From Marivivens sp. LCG002 (lineage in GTDB: Bacteria; Pseudomonadota; Alphaproteobacteria; Rhodobacterales; Rhodobacteraceae), in contig NZ_CP127165.1 in NCBI RefSeq assembly GCF_030264275.1, positions 2,406,001-2,470,000 of the forward strand: a stretch of DNA of 64,000 nt, in the 5' to 3' direction. The notes beneath the pieces were generated by a model that had not been told where the DNA came from, did no database searches, and saw only the letters and a list, made by a program, of their open reading frames with translations. The translations under genes were made by a program, and so were the position numbers. Position 1 is the stretch's first letter. Each line of letters begins with the position of its first letter. This document shows, piece by piece, positions 6,096 through 23,198 of the stretch.

Positions 6096-7441
6096 CCGGC
6101 GTCTCCCCAGCGCAGATCGCGGCCCTTCGGGAACGCGAAACCGAAATCTATACCAAGGCCCGCCCCAAAACGCGGGCAGCCTTGGAACAGGGAACGCATT
6201 TCCTTGACGGTGTGCCGATGCACTGGATGAAGGACTGGCCCCAGCCCTTTCCCATGCTCGTCGCGAAGGCCCAAGGCGCAAACCTCACCGACATCGACGG
6301 CATTACGCTCGACGATTTCTGTCTGGGGGATACCGGCTCCATGTTCGGCCACTCGCCCGAACCCGTTGCCCGTGCGATCATGGAACAGGCAACCAACGGC
6401 CTGACCTATATGCTCCCGACCGTCGCCGCTCTCGAAGTGGGGGACCTCTTGTCCCGCACCTTCGGCGACATGCGCTGGCAGATCGCAACGACCGCCACCG
6501 ATGCCAACCGCTTTGCCCTGCGCGTCGCTCGCGCCGTGACGGGACGGGCCAAGGTCCTCGTGTTCAACGGTTGCTATCACGGCACGATCGACGACGCGAT
6601 GGTGGTCCGCACAGACGGGAAAACCGTCAACCGTCCCGGCCTCGTGGGTCAGGTCAACGACCTCTCGCAAACCGCCGTCTCTTGCGAGTTCAACGATCTC
6701 GCCATGGTCGAAGAGGCTCTGGCCCAAGGCGACATTGCCGCCATTCTGACCGAACCCGTGATGACCAATTCCTGTATGGTCCTTCCCGATGCGGGCTTCC
6801 ACGAAGGTCTGCGCGAGCTTGCCACCCGCTTTGGCGCGCTTTTGATCATAGACGAAACCCATACGATTTCTTCGGGTTTGGGCGGCTATACCCGTGTGCA
6901 TGGCCTTGATCCCGATATCTTTGTGGTCGGCAAATGCGTCGCGGGCGGTATGCCCACCGCCGTTTGGGGCCTTGCCCCCCATGTCGCCCACGCCTTTGCC
7001 GAAACCGAGAAAACCCGTGATGCGGGACATTCGGGCATGGGCACCACGCTCTCGGCCAACCCGATGCAGTTCGCCTGCCTGCGCGCCACCCTCTCCGAGG
7101 TGATGACCCCCGCCAATTACGCTCATATGGAGCGCGGAGCAGCGCGGCTCGTCGATGGCCTCTCGCGGGCAATCACCGCCGCAGGTCTTCCGTGGCATGC
7201 CGTCCGCGTGGGGGCGCGTGTAGAGTTCATCTGTGCGCCCGAACCTCTCCGCAACGGCGCCGAAGCGGCCGAGGCCCACGCCTCCGAACTCGAAGCCGCC
7301 GTTCACGCGGCCCTTTTGAACAGGGGCGTTCTCATCGCGCCCTTCCACAACATGATGCTGGTGTCCCCCGTTACCACGGATGCCCAGATCGACCGCCTTG
7401 TCGCGGCCTTTACCGACGTTACGAAAGACCTGACCCAATGA
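6092..7441 (+). CDS. Class III aminotransferase, glutamate-1-semialdehyde-aminomutase-like subgroup
   Basis: 449 aa with fold-type I PLP features: FNGCYHG at 158-164, Asp254 in LLIIDETHT, and the Schiff-base Lys281 in FVVGKCVAGGMPTAVWG. The N-terminal MLPT/TGSMFGHSPEPVA region resembles GSA aminomutase-like transaminases rather than the SpuC-like enzyme at 167-1561. The gene is fused by overlaps between potI and the glutamine-synthetase-like gene, so it probably acts on an imported amine or its gamma-glutamyl derivative. True HemL (haem synthesis) is unlikely because HemL is not normally co-transcribed with a transporter. The substrate is unknown. Confidence 0.8.
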   Translation: MTGVSPAQIAALRERETEIYTKARPKTRAALEQGTHFLDGVPMHWMKDWPQPFPMLVAKAQGANLTDIDGITLDDFCLGDTGSMFGHSPEPVARAIMEQATNGLTYMLPTVAALEVGDLLSRTFGDMRWQIATTATDANRFALRVARAVTGRAKVLVFNGCYHGTIDDAMVVRTDGKTVNRPGLVGQVNDLSQTAVSCEFNDLAMVEEALAQGDIAAILTEPVMTNSCMVLPDAGFHEGLRELATRFGALLIIDETHTISSGLGGYTRVHGLDPDIFVVGKCVAGGMPTAVWGLAPHVAHAFAETEKTRDAGHSGMGTTLSANPMQFACLRATLSEVMTPANYAHMERGAARLVDGLSRAITAAGLPWHAVRVGARVEFICAPEPLRNGAEAAEAHASELEAAVHAALLNRGVLIAPFHNMMLVSPVTTDAQIDRLVAAFTDVTKDLTQ

Positions 7442-8823
7442 CCTCCTGCCCCTCTGGCGCGACGCCCTCCGAGGCCGAAGCCTTTCTCGCCGCCCATCCC
7501 GAAATTGAAGCCGTGGACATCGTGCTCCATGACGCCAACGGCATCGGTCGCGGCAAGATCATCCGTCGGCACGAGCTCTTGGCGCTCTATTCCTCGGGCC
7601 GCCATATGCCGATCTCGATCCTCGGGCTCGACATCTGCGGCGAGGATGTGCACGAAACGGGTCTCATCTGGGATCAGGGCGACGGCGACCTGCGCGCATG
7701 GCCGATCCCCGGAACGCTTGTTCCCTTGCACAACACGACACCGCCCCGCGCCGAAGTGTTCATGTCGCTCTATGATCTGGACGGGAACCCGATGACGTCG
7801 GACCCGCGCCACGCGCTCCAGCGTCAGGTCAACGCACTGGCCGAGATGGGCTATCACCCCGCAGGTGCTTTCGAGCTGGAATTCTTCCTCCTCGACAAGG
7901 ACCGCGACGAATACGGCAAAGCCCGTCCCGCCCGCGATGTGCTTGATGGGCGTCCTTCGTCCAAGACCGAGGTCTATTCGGTGGACCACCTCCACGGCAT
8001 GCTCCCGCTCTTCAACGACATCTACAAAGGCGCCGAGCTTGCGGGCATCCGTGCCGAAACGATGATCTCGGAATATGCACCGGGCCAATACGAGCTCACC
8101 CTCGACTATCGCACCGATGTGATGCAGGCCGCAGACGATCTCATGCGGCTCAAGCGGATCGTCCGCGCCCAAGCCCGCGCCCACGGCGTCACCGCCTGTT
8201 TCATGGCCAAGCCGATCGAAGCCTATGCAGGCTCGGGGATGCATTTCCACGTGAGCCTCTGCGATGAAAACGGCAAGAACGTCTTTATCGAAGAGACCGA
8301 AGGCGACTGGAACGACCTCATCCGCCACGCCATCGGCGGGATGAGCACCACAATGGCCGAAGCGATGCTTGTCTTTGCGCCCCATGCCAACAGCTGGCGG
8401 CGCTTTTCCAACCAGAGCTATGCGCCCGTCTCGCCGACTTGGGGCGTCAACAACCGCTCCGTTGCGCTCCGTATTCCCGCAGGCTCGATCAAGGCCCGTC
8501 GCATCGAGCACCGCCCCGCAGGGGTGGACGCCAACCCCTATCTCGTCGGGGCGACCGTCCTTGCCGCACTCCGCCACGGGATCGAGAACCGCATCGACCC
8601 AGGCCCCGAAACCACAGGCAACGGCTATGACGACGCGGGCGATCACAATTTCCCGACCGACTGGCACGAAGCGATCCGCGCCGCCCAGAAAAGCACCTTC
8701 CTCAAGGACGCTTTGGGCGAGGACATGCACCGCACCTTTACCGCGATCAAAGCGGCGGAATATGCGCGTGTCGCCCGCACGGTCGCGGATGTGGACTTCG
8801 ATCTCTACTTGCACACGGTTTGA
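7438..8823 (+). CDS. puuA: Glutamine-synthetase family ligase, probable gamma-glutamylpolyamine synthetase
   Basis: 461 aa, ATG overlapping the previous stop (ATGA). It has the glutamine-synthetase beta-grasp and catalytic halves: metal/glutamate residues in FELEFFLLD, YAPGQYEL and the ATP/glutamate segment GMHFHVSL, then NSWRRF and RIEHRPAG near the end. It lacks the C-terminal adenylylation Tyr segment of GlnA, as expected for PuuA-type enzymes that ATP-dependently attach glutamate to putrescine or other amines. It is last in the transporter operon. Together with the PuuB-like oxidase on the opposite strand it suggests a gamma-glutamylated route. The symbol is by analogy; the acceptor is not known. 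Confidence 0.75.
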   Translation: MTSCPSGATPSEAEAFLAAHPEIEAVDIVLHDANGIGRGKIIRRHELLALYSSGRHMPISILGLDICGEDVHETGLIWDQGDGDLRAWPIPGTLVPLHNTTPPRAEVFMSLYDLDGNPMTSDPRHALQRQVNALAEMGYHPAGAFELEFFLLDKDRDEYGKARPARDVLDGRPSSKTEVYSVDHLHGMLPLFNDIYKGAELAGIRAETMISEYAPGQYELTLDYRTDVMQAADDLMRLKRIVRAQARAHGVTACFMAKPIEAYAGSGMHFHVSLCDENGKNVFIEETEGDWNDLIRHAIGGMSTTMAEAMLVFAPHANSWRRFSNQSYAPVSPTWGVNNRSVALRIPAGSIKARRIEHRPAGVDANPYLVGATVLAALRHGIENRIDPGPETTGNGYDDAGDHNFPTDWHEAIRAAQKSTFLKDALGEDMHRTFTAIKAAEYARVARTVADVDFDLYLHTV

Positions 8824-8894
8824 GCGGCACTGCCCCTTGACCTTTGCGGCCCAAAGTCAGACCTATGGGCCAACTCTCTGACAAAGGCCAAGTC

Positions 8895-17832: not shown

Positions 17833-18020
17833 TTGCCACCTCGTAGTTTTTCAATGTTCTTTACGTCAACGCCCTCGGGAGCGCAACAATATTTCACAAA
17901 CGCGCAACTTCCTTTCGAAGAGTTGCGGCGATTTGCATCTATTGTGACGATGGGCGGCCCTTTCACTTGGGTCGCGGCGGCGCTATATCGGGACGGATTG
18001 ATAATGAAAAGGGGGCTGAC

Positions 18021-18962
18021 ATGTCTGACTCGCGCCACACCAAAGTTCTGATCATCGGCTCCGGCCCCGCAGGGTATACCGCAGGCGTTTACGCCAGCCG
18101 CGCCATGCTCTCCCCGATCCTCGTGCAGGGGATGGAGCCGGGCGGCCAGCTCACCACCACGACCGAGGTCGAGAACTGGCCGGGCGTCAATGAAATCCAA
18201 GGCCCCGAACTGATGGTCAACATGGAAGCCCACGCCAAGGCCATGGGCTGCGAGATCATCATGGACATCATCACCGATCTGGACCTGTCCAAGCGTCCCT
18301 TCACCGCCAAGGGCGACAGCGGCACCACCTACACCGCCGATGCCGTGATCCTCGCCACAGGGGCCAAGGCCAAATGGCTCGGCCTTCCCACCGAAGAGAA
18401 ATTCCGCGGCTTCGGCGTGTCGGCCTGTGCGACCTGTGACGGCTTCTTCTATCGCGGTCAGGAAATCGTCGTGGTCGGCGGCGGCAACACCGCAGTGGAA
18501 GAGGCGCTCTTCCTCACCAACTTCGCTTCCAAAGTGACGCTGATCCACCGCCGCGACGAGCTGCGCGCCGAAAAGATCCTCATCGACCGTCTCACCAAGA
18601 ACCCCAAGATCGAGACCCTCTGGTTCCACGAAATCCACGAGGTCTACGGCACAGACAGCCCGCTCGGCGTCGAAGGCGTCAAGGTCAAGCACACCAAAAC
18701 GGGCGAAATCACGGACATTCCCGCCAAGGGCGTCTTTATCGCCATCGGCCACGCCCCCGCGAGCGAACTCGTCAAGGACCAGCTCGAATTGCACAACGGC
18801 GGCTATGTCTCGGTGAAACCCGGCTCGACCGAAACCTCGATCCCCGGCGTCTTTGCTGCAGGCGACCTCACCGACCACAAATACCGCCAAGCCATCACCT
18901 CCGCAGGCATGGGCTGCATGGCCGCCCTAGACGCCGAACGCTTCCTCGCGGAAGAGCACTAA
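18021..18962 (+). CDS. trxB: Thioredoxin-disulfide reductase
   Basis: 313 aa from the ATG at 18021, behind AAAAGGGGG. FAD-binding [10 protein letters not shown] near 13-22, redox pair C136-A-T-C139-D, NADPH-binding [10 protein letters not shown] near 161, and the final FAD motif [11 protein letters not shown]. It reduces thioredoxin with NADPH in the cytoplasm. It is separated from the low-GC gene downstream by its own terminator. Confidence 0.96.
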
Positions 18963-18995
18963 GCGACCCTTCGGACCACTCCTAGAGCAACGCAA

Positions 18996-19020
18996 GCCGC
19001 CCCTTCGGGGGCGGTTTTTG
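18996..19020 (+). terminator. Terminator of trxB
   Basis: CCGCCCC / GGGGCGG stem with a TTCG-type loop, followed by TTTTTGTTTTT. Confidence 0.88.
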
Positions 19021-19051
19021 TTTTTGGGGGCTTTGGGCTTGAGGGCAATAC

Positions 19052-20161
19052 CTATTGCCAAGTAACGGATAGACTAGGCGGGAGATCAAACCCAATTTCG
19101 CGACGAATTAATGCGGACGGCGGACTACCCATGAAATCCAACCCGTCCTCAGCTAAGTATTGCAAATGTTTCTTATGAGTTTCTTCAAGATCACGATACC
19201 AGTCCGGATTGAAGAAAATATTCTCAATGTGTTTGACAACAAACTGTAAAACCGCGGAAGCCTGTTCCTCAGAAGGCAACATTGAAATCTGCTCAGCAAC
19301 TATCCTTCCTGGGGCACCTTCAATTTCCCGCCAAGATATACAAACGATCGCTCGACTTTCTGCCGCAAAAGAAGAGACTATAATCTGCTCCAAAAGCTGA
19401 TCAGAACAAACGTCCTGAAGTTGCCTGCCATAGAAGTCGGTTAATGGTGACCAAGCTCCCGCGAACATAAAGGGTAATTGACCGTCGAATTCAATGATCA
19501 TGGAGCTAATCAAATTAACCTGTCGATGGACAAGCGCCGAAGTCAAACAGTCGAAGGTCGCTCTTAACTCGCGACGGGCTGCCTCATTTCCTAGACTTAT
19601 TTCGCTTAGCTTCGCTTGGAAAAGGAACTGATCTGAAAGTGACCGACCTTTATCGGCACCGTGCAAGGTTGTTCTCAAGTGTGCCGAGGCGTCTTTGCCA
19701 TAGAGTTCCCGACTTATAGTTCGATAAGCAACTGTAAGGCACTGCAACGGGGTCGCCGCAAATATCTCGTTCTCAAGACACGAGAAAAGGACGCGATCAT
19801 GTAAACCACAGAACCCATAAAAAGCAGAAGCCTGATTTATGCCAACTTCTTTGATGTTAATTAGAGATCCGTTGGTCCTCTTGAGCCGTGGATCGACCTG
19901 ATAAGTCAGCACGTGCCCATCGACTGCTATTCTATTCAAATTAGGTCCACGTGAGACGCTATGAGCCCTAATGATCTTACCTTCACAGGGGCCCAATCCA
20001 ACATCACGGGCAAAACAAGTTCGCTCAGAAAATGCTTTCTTGTTAGCTGAAACAGCATTCCACAGGTTTTCTGGTTTTTGTGCGTCTCGCGCCAAATGAC
20101 ATTTCTTATACTTGAGTTCTGAACCACACCAACAGCGAGCGTTCCTATCTCTACCTTTCAT
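19052..20161 (-). CDS. SEC-C motif protein with an HNH-like Cys/His set; accessory, function unknown
   Basis: 369 aa. Residues 10-22 form a SEC-C zinc motif (C10-x-C12-x8-C21-H22). A second metal-like set follows: C49, C59, an AHSVSR segment with H67, a DGHVL segment with H83, and FCGLHD with C118 and H121, then F126 and E130. This spacing is reminiscent of HNH/treble-clef proteins. Residues 150-369 are alpha-helical with no motif I recognise. It is visibly AT-richer than its surroundings: two 60-base lines I counted were 40% and 50% GC, in a region otherwise around 60% or more. It sits alone between the terminators of trxB and ychF, consistent with horizontal gain. Phage defence or nuclease activity would be a guess. 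Confidence 0.7.
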   Translation of the reverse strand: MKGRDRNARCWCGSELKYKKCHLARDAQKPENLWNAVSANKKAFSERTCFARDVGLGPCEGKIIRAHSVSRGPNLNRIAVDGHVLTYQVDPRLKRTNGSLINIKEVGINQASAFYGFCGLHDRVLFSCLENEIFAATPLQCLTVAYRTISRELYGKDASAHLRTTLHGADKGRSLSDQFLFQAKLSEISLGNEAARRELRATFDCLTSALVHRQVNLISSMIIEFDGQLPFMFAGAWSPLTDFYGRQLQDVCSDQLLEQIIVSSFAAESRAIVCISWREIEGAPGRIVAEQISMLPSEEQASAVLQFVVKHIENIFFNPDWYRDLEETHKKHLQYLAEDGLDFMGSPPSALIRREIGFDLPPSLSVTWQ

Positions 20162-20261
20162 CTTCGAACCCCCGAACTAAACAAAACCAAATGCAAATCA
20201 CCAAAAAATAGCATGAATAACCATCTTATCCACCATAAATTGCAGATCTTCTCCCCCCCCA

Positions 20262-20297
20262 AAAAAACAAAAACGCCGCCCCCATCAGGAGCGGCGC
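20262..20297 (-). terminator. Terminator of ychF
   Basis: On the minus strand a GCCGC-rich 6-7 bp stem is followed by TTTTTGTTTTTTT. Next to it is an unusual C8/A7 homopolymer junction at 20253-20267. Confidence 0.8.
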
Positions 20298-20321
20298 TTT
20301 CCCTAAAATTTTCCTGTAAAA

Positions 20322-21419
20322 TCAAGTATTAAACAGGAAGTGCATGACGTCCCCGTCCTTGACGATATAGGTCTTGCCCTCGGCGCGCATCTTGCCCGCT
20401 TCCTTGGCGCCCGTCTCGCCACCCAAGGTGACATAGTCCTCATAGGCGATGGTCTCGGCGCGGATGAAGCCGCGTTCGAAGTCGCCGTGGATGACCCCTG
20501 CGGCCTGCGGTGCGGCAGTGCCTTCCTTGATGGTCCAGGCGCGGGCCTCTTTGGGACCGACGGTGAAATAGGTCTGAAGGTGCAAAAGCTGGTAGCCTGC
20601 GCGGATAAGACGGTCGAGACCTGCCTCCTCCAGCCCCATTTCCGAGAGGAACATCTCGGCCTCTTCGGCGTCGAGCTGGCTGATCTCTTCCTCGATGCGT
20701 GCCGAGATCACCACATGGCTGTTGCCCTGCGCCGCCGCCATTTCCGCCACGCGGGCCGACTGGCTGTTGCCCGTGGCCGAGGCCTCCTCTTCCACGTTGC
20801 AGACATAGAGCACGGGCTTGGTCGACAGAAGCTGGAGCATCTTCCACGCCTTCTTGTCGTCCTCTGCCACGTCGACCGTGCGGGCAGGCTTGCCGTCCTC
20901 GATCGCCGCTTTGGCAAGGTTGAGGAGGCGCTCCTGATCGATGGCTTCCTTATCGCCGCCGCGCACCTTGCGCACGATGTTCTGCAGACGGCGCTCGATG
21001 GACTCGAGGTCCGCCAGCATCAGCTCCATCTCGATGGTCTCGGCGTCCGACACGGGGTCCACGCGGCCTTCGACGTGGGTGATGTCGTCATCCTCGAAAC
21101 AGCGCAGCACATGGGCGATGGCGTCACACTCGCGGATGTTGGCAAGGAACTGGTTCCCGAGGCCTTCGCCCTTGGACGCGCCCTTGACCAGACCCGCGAT
21201 GTCCACGAACGTCATACGGGTCGGGATGATCTGCTTGGAGCCTGCGATCGCGGCCAGCTTGTCCAGACGCGCATCGGGCACGGCCACTTCGCCCACGTTC
21301 GGCTCGATGGTGCAGAACGGAAAGTTCGCCGCCTGCGCCGCAGCGGTTTTGGTCAATGCATTGAACAGGGTGGACTTGCCGACGTTCGGCAGACCAACGA
21401 TACCCATCTTGAAGCCCAT
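20322..21419 (-). CDS. ychF: Redox-regulated ribosome-associated ATPase YchF (OLA1 family)
   Basis: 365 aa, starting MGFKMGIVGLPNVGKSTLFN with the P-loop GLPNVGKS at 9-16. Switch segments DIAGLVKGASKGEGLGNQF and the NVEE that replaces NKxD identify the ATP-preferring Obg-like YchF. The C-terminal TGS-type domain ends in VMHFLFNT. It associates with ribosomes and modulates the oxidative stress response in E. coli. An AGGAGG site precedes the ATG. Confidence 0.95.
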   Translation of the reverse strand: MGFKMGIVGLPNVGKSTLFNALTKTAAAQAANFPFCTIEPNVGEVAVPDARLDKLAAIAGSKQIIPTRMTFVDIAGLVKGASKGEGLGNQFLANIRECDAIAHVLRCFEDDDITHVEGRVDPVSDAETIEMELMLADLESIERRLQNIVRKVRGGDKEAIDQERLLNLAKAAIEDGKPARTVDVAEDDKKAWKMLQLLSTKPVLYVCNVEEEASATGNSQSARVAEMAAAQGNSHVVISARIEEEISQLDAEEAEMFLSEMGLEEAGLDRLIRAGYQLLHLQTYFTVGPKEARAWTIKEGTAAPQAAGVIHGDFERGFIRAETIAYEDYVTLGGETGAKEAGKMRAEGKTYIVKDGDVMHFLFNT

Positions 21420-21563
21420 AGGACCCTCCTGAAAACTCTTGGGCGCTTCTAGGACGCAAGAGGCACATATTCAAGCAATCCTTGCCCGCCGAGGCCCCTG
21501 CCCCATTGCAACGGCGCGTCTTTTGGGCGAAACCCCTTTGGAACTATTGTGAGGGGGGTCCCG

Positions 21564-22355
21564 ATGACTCGGATCGACGCGAAATTTGCCGAACTCAAAG
21601 CCGCAGGTAAGAAGGCCTTTGTCGCCTATGTCATGGCGGGCGATCCCGACCTCGAGACCTCGATCGAAATCGTCAAAGGCTTGCCCGCGGCAGGCGTCGA
21701 CATCATCGAGCTCGGCCTTCCCTTTACCGATCCGATGGCAGACGGCTCGACCATCCAGCTCGCGGGCCAGCGTGCGCTTGACGGCGGCATGACCTTGAAC
21801 AAGACGCTCGACGTCGCCCGCGCCCTGCGCGAGACCGATCAGACCACCCCGATCGTGCTCATGGGCTATTACAACCCGATCTACAGTCATGGCGTGGACA
21901 AGTTCCTTGTGGACGCCAAAGAGGCAGGGATCGACGGTCTTATCATCGTGGACCTTCCCCCCGAAGAGGACAGCGAGCTTTGCATCCCCGCGCAGGCCGC
22001 AGGGATCAACTTCATCCGTCTCGCGACCCCGACCACCGATGACAAGCGCCTCCCCAAAGTGCTCCAGAACACCTCCGGTTTCGTCTACTACGTGTCGGTG
22101 ACGGGCATCACCGGTGCCGCCGCCGCCGTCGCAGGCGAGGTCGGCCCCGAGGTCGCCCGCATCAAGGCCAAGACCGATCTTCCGATCATCGTCGGCTTTG
22201 GTATCCGTACCCCCGAAGCCTCGCGCGATATCGCCGCCATCGCGGACGGCGCAGTCGTCGGTTCGGCCATCGTCGGCAAGATCGGTGACGGCGAAAGCGT
22301 CGCGGACGTGCTCGCCTTTGTAAAAACCTTGGCCGACGGCGCACACTCGGCCTAA
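21564..22355 (+). CDS. trpA: Tryptophan synthase alpha chain
   Basis: 263 aa from the ATG at 21564, behind GAGGGGGG; a GTG at 21549 would extend it by five residues. It begins [20 protein letters not shown]. The catalytic Glu is in [16 protein letters not shown] and the second acidic residue is in [10 protein letters not shown]. It cleaves indole-3-glycerol phosphate to indole and glyceraldehyde-3-phosphate and channels indole to TrpB. Here trpA is separate from trpB (28357-29583), on the other strand. Confidence 0.95.
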
Positions 22356-22379
22356 GGCCCTTTGACCTGCCCATAGATA

Positions 22380-22404
22380 AAGCCGCCTCTCGGGCGGCTT
22401 TTTG
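22380..22404 (+). terminator. Terminator of trpA
   Basis: AAGCCGCC / GGCGGCTT stem, loop TCTCG, then TTTGTTTT. Confidence 0.88.
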
Positions 22405-22424
22405 TTTTCAATGGCGCTAGCAAG

Positions 22425-23198
22425 TCACCCCAGAGTCACATCAAGGAACATCATCAGGATCAGGCCGAAGATGAGGCCTGTGGTGGCGCGGTTCTGGTGG
22501 CCCGAGCGGTGGGTTTCGGGGACGATCTCGTGGCTGATGATATAGAGCATCGCACCCGCCGAGAAGGTAAGGCCAAGGGGCAGGATCGTTGTCGAGAGCG
22601 AAACGGCGCTTGCGCCGATCAAAGCGCCCAAGGGCTCGACCGCGCCTGTCAGGGCGGCGGTGGCAAAGGACTTCCACTTGCCGTAGCCGCGGCTCATCAA
22701 AGCGACCGCAACGGCGAGACCTTCGGGAAGATCCTGAAGCGAAATGCCCGTCATGACGGAAAGCCCGCGCGTGATGTCGTCGCCGCCGAAGGAGACGCCG
22801 ATCGACATGCCTTCGGGAAAGTTGTGGATCGTGATCGCGATCACAAAGAGCCAGATACGCGCCAGCGAGGTGGAGTCCGCGTTCTCTTGCCCCATCTCGA
22901 AGTGCTCGTGCGGGAGCGTGGAGTTGAGCCACGCCACAAAGCCCGCCCCGAGCGCGATACCGACCGCCGCGATCAGGGCTGCGATTGCGGTGCTGTTCCA
23001 GATGTCTTCGGCCACGGCGATGCCGGGTATAATGAGCGAGAAGTAGGAGGCCGAGAGCATGACCCCCGCCGCAAAGCCGAGCATGGTATCGCTCGCCCGC
23101 TGCGAGAGCGGTTTGCCCACAAGAACAAAGGCAGCGCCGAGGGTGGTCGCAAGAAAAGCAACGACACCGCCGAGCGTGCCGTGAAGAATGGTATCCAT
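22425..23198 (-). CDS. ZIP-family divalent metal transporter
   Basis: 257 aa from the ATG at 23198 (MDTILHGTLGG), preceded by GGGGACA; an upstream in-frame start gives an unlikely polar extension. Eight hydrophobic segments. Helix 4 has HNFPEGMSIGVSFGG and helix 5 has DLPEGLAVAVALMS, the paired metal-site helices of ZIP (ZupT/GufA-like) carriers. A His/Glu-containing stretch (LPHEHFEMGQEN) lies on the loop before helix 4. Probable zinc or other divalent cation uptake at the inner membrane. Confidence 0.88.
   Translation of the reverse strand: MDTILHGTLGGVVAFLATTLGAAFVLVGKPLSQRASDTMLGFAAGVMLSASYFSLIIPGIAVAEDIWNSTAIAALIAAVGIALGAGFVAWLNSTLPHEHFEMGQENADSTSLARIWLFVIAITIHNFPEGMSIGVSFGGDDITRGLSVMTGISLQDLPEGLAVAVALMSRGYGKWKSFATAALTGAVEPLGALIGASAVSLSTTILPLGLTFSAGAMLYIISHEIVPETHRSGHQNRATTGLIFGLILMMFLDVTLG

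Follow-up and report, generated by a model that had tools for sequence, protein, structure and literature searches.

The SEC-C motif (PF02810) is found in the C-terminal tail of SecA, where such zinc knuckles act as docking modules. The protein family described here carries the same CxCx8C(H/C) knuckle, placed here at the N-terminus of a domain of some 300 residues. At E<=0.01, 38 of the 57 homologues match SEC-C and 19 fail to, so that SEC-C is an add-on to a core family. The PADLOC models E2 and E1-E2, which include SEC-C, share about 20 residues with the family and leave the rest of the 369-aa protein unmatched, and these residues of the E2 models aside, PADLOC gave no full-length match to a known defence model. 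Most of the E. coli copies listed bear the RefSeq label of the YecA family, which in our reading rests on SEC-C; a distinct family can thus go unnoticed behind names like 'SEC-C domain-containing protein' and 'YecA family protein'. A second comparison is with the HNH or His-Me finger nucleases (PF01844, PF13391), which the family resembles in a Cys pair, a strand-end AH and a second proposed metal pair followed by an acidic residue; it differs in having C-x9-C and CxxH instead of two CxxC, in halves that are 50 residues apart, and in showing neither profile similarity nor a structural match. The third comparison is with single-gene defence genes of prophage and satellite hotspots, such as the PDC-S candidates of PADLOC and the cargo of P4-like satellites, whose integrase-psu region is described as a hotspot of defence systems (PMC8628076). 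Like these, the family consists of one sporadically distributed gene, and it occupies slots of the same kind, in P2-like prophages and in an integrase/AlpA/DUF927 element whose P4-like status is putative; unlike the PDC-S candidates, it has no PADLOC model of its own, and its defence function is putative.

We read the gene, with moderate confidence and from its context, as a mobile single-gene accessory effector, most likely of anti-phage immunity. In the window, by which we mean the whole 64-kb stretch of DNA that was analysed, it lies between two genes that we take from their translations to be trxB and ychF:
19052..20161, reverse strand: gene for a protein with SEC-C and a conserved Cys/His core, ATG start, open reading frame of 369 aa
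18994..19017, forward strand: terminator-like hairpin at the trxB end, 10 pairs
20269..20301, reverse strand: terminator-like hairpin at the ychF end, 15 pairs
18963..20321, no strand: junction of trxB, the gene and ychF, where gene order departs from that of the other species in the genus

The GC content of the gene is 0.461 versus 0.608 +/- 0.022 in the remaining called genes (z -6.6), the lowest of all 57 genes called in the window at a length of roughly 300 bases and above, and its third-position GC is 0.43 versus 0.75. A hairpin scan returned 3 terminator-like sites versus 2.0 +/- 1.4 in shuffles, a count that is itself ordinary, and both hairpins are positioned at the expected ends of trxB and ychF; the sequence-only reading of an AT-rich gene between two terminators is thus borne out. 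A 24-base inverted repeat around the gene turned out to be the two terminators themselves. Searches for RNA families at 18000-21500 and for tRNAs throughout the window found none. In the Marivivens genomes compared, trxB and ychF are non-adjacent in all six congeners, and in 10 stretches from these six genomes the genes on the trxB side of the window match one conserved order and those on the ychF side a different one, which places the low-GC gene on a rearrangement junction. It may have arrived together with the rearrangement or have exploited a fragile site; the window copy reads as a lone acquisition at that junction. GC skew flips from negative to positive within about 21500-23000, the crossing itself at roughly 22-22.5 kb, near the junction.

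Outside the knuckle the protein is organised around a conserved core, which was also modelled alone, followed by a helical part and a C-terminal domain:
20093..20146, reverse strand: SEC-C zinc knuckle, residues 6-23 (C10, C12, C21, H22), Pfam PF02810
19682..20086, reverse strand: conserved core, residues 26-160, from the alignment
20015..20017, reverse strand: C49, proposed zinc ligand, C in 56/57 homologues
19985..19987, reverse strand: C59, proposed zinc ligand, C in 55/57
19961..19963, reverse strand: H67 of AHSVSR (66-71), at a strand end, proposed active-site residue, H in 57/57
19796..19810, reverse strand: C118-x-x-H121-D122 at a strand/helix junction, with C118 and H121 proposed zinc ligands and D122 a proposed active-site residue, 57/57, 56/57 and 56/57
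19772..19774, reverse strand: E130, E in 56/57
19721..19723, reverse strand: R147, R in 57/57
19529..19750, reverse strand: long helical part, residues 138-211, with helices 138-160, 162-170 and 175-211
19139..19510, reverse strand: C-terminal alpha/beta domain, residues 218-341, four strands then helices, N314 kept in 52/57

The SEC-C assignment made by eye, CxCx8CH at C10, C12, C21 and H22, is confirmed by Pfam, where PF02810 scores 35.1 bits against a curated cut-off of 20.4 (E 1.2e-8) and no other domain in the 369-aa protein exceeds its cut-off. NCBIfam, PADLOC, PHROGs and PDB sequences returned SEC-C only or nothing reliable, the PDB sequence matches being weak ones to SEC-C peptides, and a profile of the core plus the C-terminal part gave nothing below E 1.7 against PDB sequences. 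Four residues (H67, C118, F126 and R147) are invariant in all 57 aligned homologues and G116 is conserved in 56; conservation of the core across these homologues indicates that the Cys/His arrangement is not there by chance. The set first picked out by eye, C49/C59/H67/H83/C118/H121, was correctly positioned, as were the AHSVSR and FCGLHD (117-122) segments, and five of its six members are conserved; the exception is H83, which is His in just 38/57. Both AlphaFold models are confident, with pLDDT 89.3 and pTM 0.90 for the whole protein and pLDDT 89.6 and pTM 0.77 for the core alone. In the model a strand of residues 63-67 ends at H67 and is followed by a helix (71-78) and strands 83-89, 101-107 and 113-118; helix 119-125 begins right after the last of these, its start marked by C118-x-x-H121-D122, while E130 is close to the helix end. 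The family is real, mobile and strongly constrained, and its pattern of conservation makes a zinc site in the core likely. Shortened members of 153-223 aa (L005, L058, L148, L173-L175) retain the N-terminal half or part of it and are either decayed copies or short forms.

Fold searches with these models gave no significant match in the PDB (best E 0.2 for the whole model and 1.0 for the core) or, for the whole model, in BFVD (best E 0.035). In a second look with VIA the best Z was 4.6 for the whole model (72 aligned, rmsd 7.4) and 3.0 for the core (67 aligned, rmsd 4.8). The matches were scattered, unrelated and below significance, and we set them aside; among the matches listed nothing pointed to an HNH fold, a treble clef or a nuclease family, though one of these may still lie beyond that list. 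We hold it possible, with less assurance than we have in the defence role, that the core works through a catalytic zinc-centred mechanism. The protein could instead be a structural zinc protein without catalysis: a sensor, a regulator of transcription or translation, or a superinfection-exclusion factor that binds its target. In favour of this, no reliable likeness to a known enzyme was found by sequence or fold in the libraries searched; its SEC-C could be a docking module as in SecA, and the Cys/His set alone accounts for part of the conservation. Against this, one zinc takes only four residues, and H67, D122, E130 and R147 are kept in addition; extra conservation of that kind is more usual in an active site. 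We regard a purely structural protein as rather unlikely.

Homologues were found in genomes, plasmids, phage records and viral contigs, and the gene is thus not the orphan it had seemed. The family is present in 11/390 genomes of Rhodobacterales including its own genome, in 10/139 genera. With a profile of the core only, it was found in 8/396 genomes of the phylum and in 1/7 of the genus, that one being its own. This profile replaced one of the whole protein including SEC-C, which, beyond the few matches reaching the core, had hit 391/398 genomes through short SEC-C stretches that we presume to belong to SecA and the like; rows L060-L129 and L181-L185, short SEC-C matches without the core, were dropped as well. 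Plasmid records carry the family in 28 of 72,556 cases and phage records in 2 of 50,697, both unannotated Listeria phage contigs, and the core is held by 51/56 IMG/VR loci, which were found by a search method that differs from the phage-record search. A scan of viral contigs with the single window protein as query returned nothing. The genome-contig scan, a sample consisting of the best 80 of 586 stretches, found the core in 10 of these 80. A homologue occurs in 92/5,426 complete E. coli genomes, always on the chromosome, and the family spans Proteobacteria, Firmicutes, Bacteroidetes and other phyla. In AT content the member exceeds its flanks at 27/30 plasmid or genome loci and on 49/51 viral contigs. 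The horizontal gain proposed from composition and isolation is supported: the gene is a GC outlier, is absent from 6/6 congeners and patchy in the order, and has homologues on plasmids, prophage-like contigs and islands. The opposite case, homologues always at this locus with normal composition, did not occur.

Among the loci opened (8/28 plasmid matches, 1/2 phage matches and 5/92 E. coli genomes), the plasmids or secondary replicons belong to Rhizobium, Shinella, Sphingomonas, Vibrio, Pseudoalteromonas and Lactococcus. In four of the five E. coli loci (L283, L285, L286, L287) the member lies between gpD and ogr of a P2-like prophage that sits at tRNA genes (tRNA-Leu) and adjoins pgsA/uvrC; the copy in L286 is interrupted by IS600, and the fifth locus looks like another integrated element. 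In a Salmonella record (L014) the member comes next to the integrase, on its downstream side, in an element that also encodes AlpA and DUF927, and downstream is an AAA ATPase and DUF4435 pair that we take to be PARIS-like. A terminase small subunit immediately follows the member in L159, and an integrase-family gene (Pfam) immediately precedes it in L156; 8 loci, 7 of which are viral contigs, have related genes of the integrase family at a distance of one to three genes ahead of the member. Recurrent neighbours are umuC-like, umuD-like, phage integrase-family, ABC-F-like and phage genes, and no partner gene is common to the loci compared, near-identical viral contigs being left out.

To evaluate the defence context, neighbours of at least 90 aa within 8 kb of 30 loci (7 plasmid records, 8 from the genome-contig scan and 15 from genome searches) were compared with PADLOC at E<=1e-15, giving a set of 409 proteins; the E. 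coli locus L013, the phage record L017, L054, L059, the short L227 and all viral contigs were left out of the tallies. Genes were called by an amino-acid-composition caller whose calls were compared by eye with the annotation of one locus, L015. The control came from 16 regions placed arbitrarily in 13 genomes; of their 259 proteins, 145 were sampled. The neighbours, scanned in three parts, matched 111, 100 and 52 PADLOC families versus 6 in the control, counts that are of families and not proteins, that are inflated by generic ATPases and helicases each matching dozens (e.g. a UvrD-like protein in L226), and that are set against a control imperfectly matched to the loci, since it covers the genomes of 12 of the 15 genome-search loci plus the window's own genome and leaves the 15 plasmid and genome-contig loci unmatched. 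All six control families (SspA, DndA, mad2, mad3, mad8 and ZorB) have, in our judgement, housekeeping relatives, and we likewise judge the AriA, mad3 and mad8 matches to be largely of the generic ATPase/helicase kind. Among the neighbour matches listed were GajA, GajB, SIR2, HerA, SduA, ThsB, capP, AbiU, PD-Lambda-3_B, MTase_II and REase_II, together with PDC-M68A/B and PDC-S05/S15/S23/S28/S36, each of these defence families mostly in a single protein; the systems named are Gabija, SIR2-HerA, Shedu, Thoeris, AbiU and others.

When 20 large neighbours were scanned singly, clear matches were obtained in L012 (PDC-M68B), L051 (HerA and a DpdJ/BrxH-like helicase), L214 (PDC-S28) and L217 (AbiU), and weaker or generic ones in L213 (type IV restriction, weaker), L216 and L226, whereas 12 of the 20 had no PADLOC match at 1e-15. 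The annotation of L015 lists an Abi protein, an AAA ATPase and a helicase as neighbours. In L214 a 544-aa gene (7207-8841) lies directly before the member and near PDC-S28, and has no Pfam match at E<=0.001. By family counts and an imperfectly matched control, members thus lie beside known defence genes more than the control regions do, which upholds the suggestion of a defence context for the family; it does not extend to the window locus, whose neighbours read as housekeeping genes from their translations with no evident defence gene among them.

Since cargo of every kind gathers in islands and prophages, the context would suit other mobile functions as well. In seven viral-contig loci (L140, L141, L143, L144, L145, L163 and L167) a umuC-like gene lies no more than two genes away from the member. 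This suggests another role, in which the gene would aid mutagenesis, DNA repair or the induction of the temperate phage in residence instead of acting against other phages. These loci fall into two groups, and identity between their members is only about 23-30%; the umuC-like gene is directly before the member on the same strand in L140, L141, L143, L144 and L145, and a SRAP-like gene adjoins the member in L140, L143, L144 and L215, these neighbours being Pfam-confirmed for L141 and L143. The member may be co-transcribed with umuDC in some contigs, and a LexA-like box precedes the gene before umuC in 2/4 loci looked at. Three simple patterns found no LexA-type box in the 300 bases upstream of the member in any of 84 cases, a weak negative because shuffles gave only 0.3-0.4 hits. 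umuC is clustered with the member in only these seven of the loci compared, and plasmids and islands that bear defence genes account for many of the copies; we think a repair or prophage-lifestyle role improbable.

The sequence-only reading had called the Cys/His arrangement HNH-like. The spacing does resemble HNH, with the order C..C, AH, CxxH-D; H67 closes a strand, and C118/H121/D122 lie where a strand passes into a helix. In T4 endonuclease VII a metal-binding Asn directly follows a zinc Cys, which may offer a parallel. Membership of a known family of true HNH endonucleases is nevertheless very unlikely from these comparisons. None of the 57 members has a Pfam HNH match at E<=0.01, and hhalign gave the family core 0.4% against HNH and 0.1% against HNH_2, the two HNH families compared, versus 81.5% for HNH against HNH_2 as positive control; distant subgroups of the family recover one another at 99.9%. 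The residue before H67 is A in 44/57 and S in 13/57, so the first strand does not end in a D/H-H pair, which is not decisive alone because HNH_2 members likewise carry AH or SH. H67 and C118 are 50 residues apart, and the fold searches described above gave no significant structural match. Our guess is that the family may nonetheless act like a zinc-braced nuclease. That the gene is an anti-defence or establishment factor shielding incoming plasmids and phages from host defences, as members flanked by clusters of conjugation genes in a Shinella plasmid and a conjugative plasmid of Sphingomonas might suggest, is highly improbable for a family nearly absent from phage genome records and often beside defence genes in genomes.

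Returning to an accessory effector of anti-phage immunity, we tentatively propose an undescribed, stand-alone family of mobile immune effectors for which no structural relative was found, in which a zinc-centred catalytic core with a His/Asp/Glu/Arg set would be steered by SEC-C and carried as swap-in cargo of prophage, satellite and plasmid slots. C49, C59, C118 and H121 would hold one structural zinc, and next to it H67, D122, E130 and R147 would make up an active site or a site for a ligand. Through its SEC-C knuckle the protein would dock on the ribosome, nucleic acid or a protein. On infection, we would guess, the protein cleaves or blocks nucleic acid, either phage DNA or host or phage RNA, perhaps as a one-metal nuclease braced by zinc would, and the lysogen or host might thereby be protected from a competing phage. 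A search of published, mainly open-access literature on phage defence and prophages gave no title or opening of an abstract that points to the family. If the proposal is true, this is a small immune family of one gene each, whose core is not linked to known nucleases by the present searches of sequence and fold, and it offers ready test residues; it would be easy to assay because of the E. coli homologues.

One further arrangement recurs. In L218, L219, L220 and L221, whose members are 24-33% identical mutually, an ABC-F-like gene (Pfam for L220), presumably EttA, lies one to two genes from the member, and a related gene of 68-73 aa lies two to four genes off on the side opposite the ABC-F-like gene, an arrangement that is possibly an insertion hotspot.
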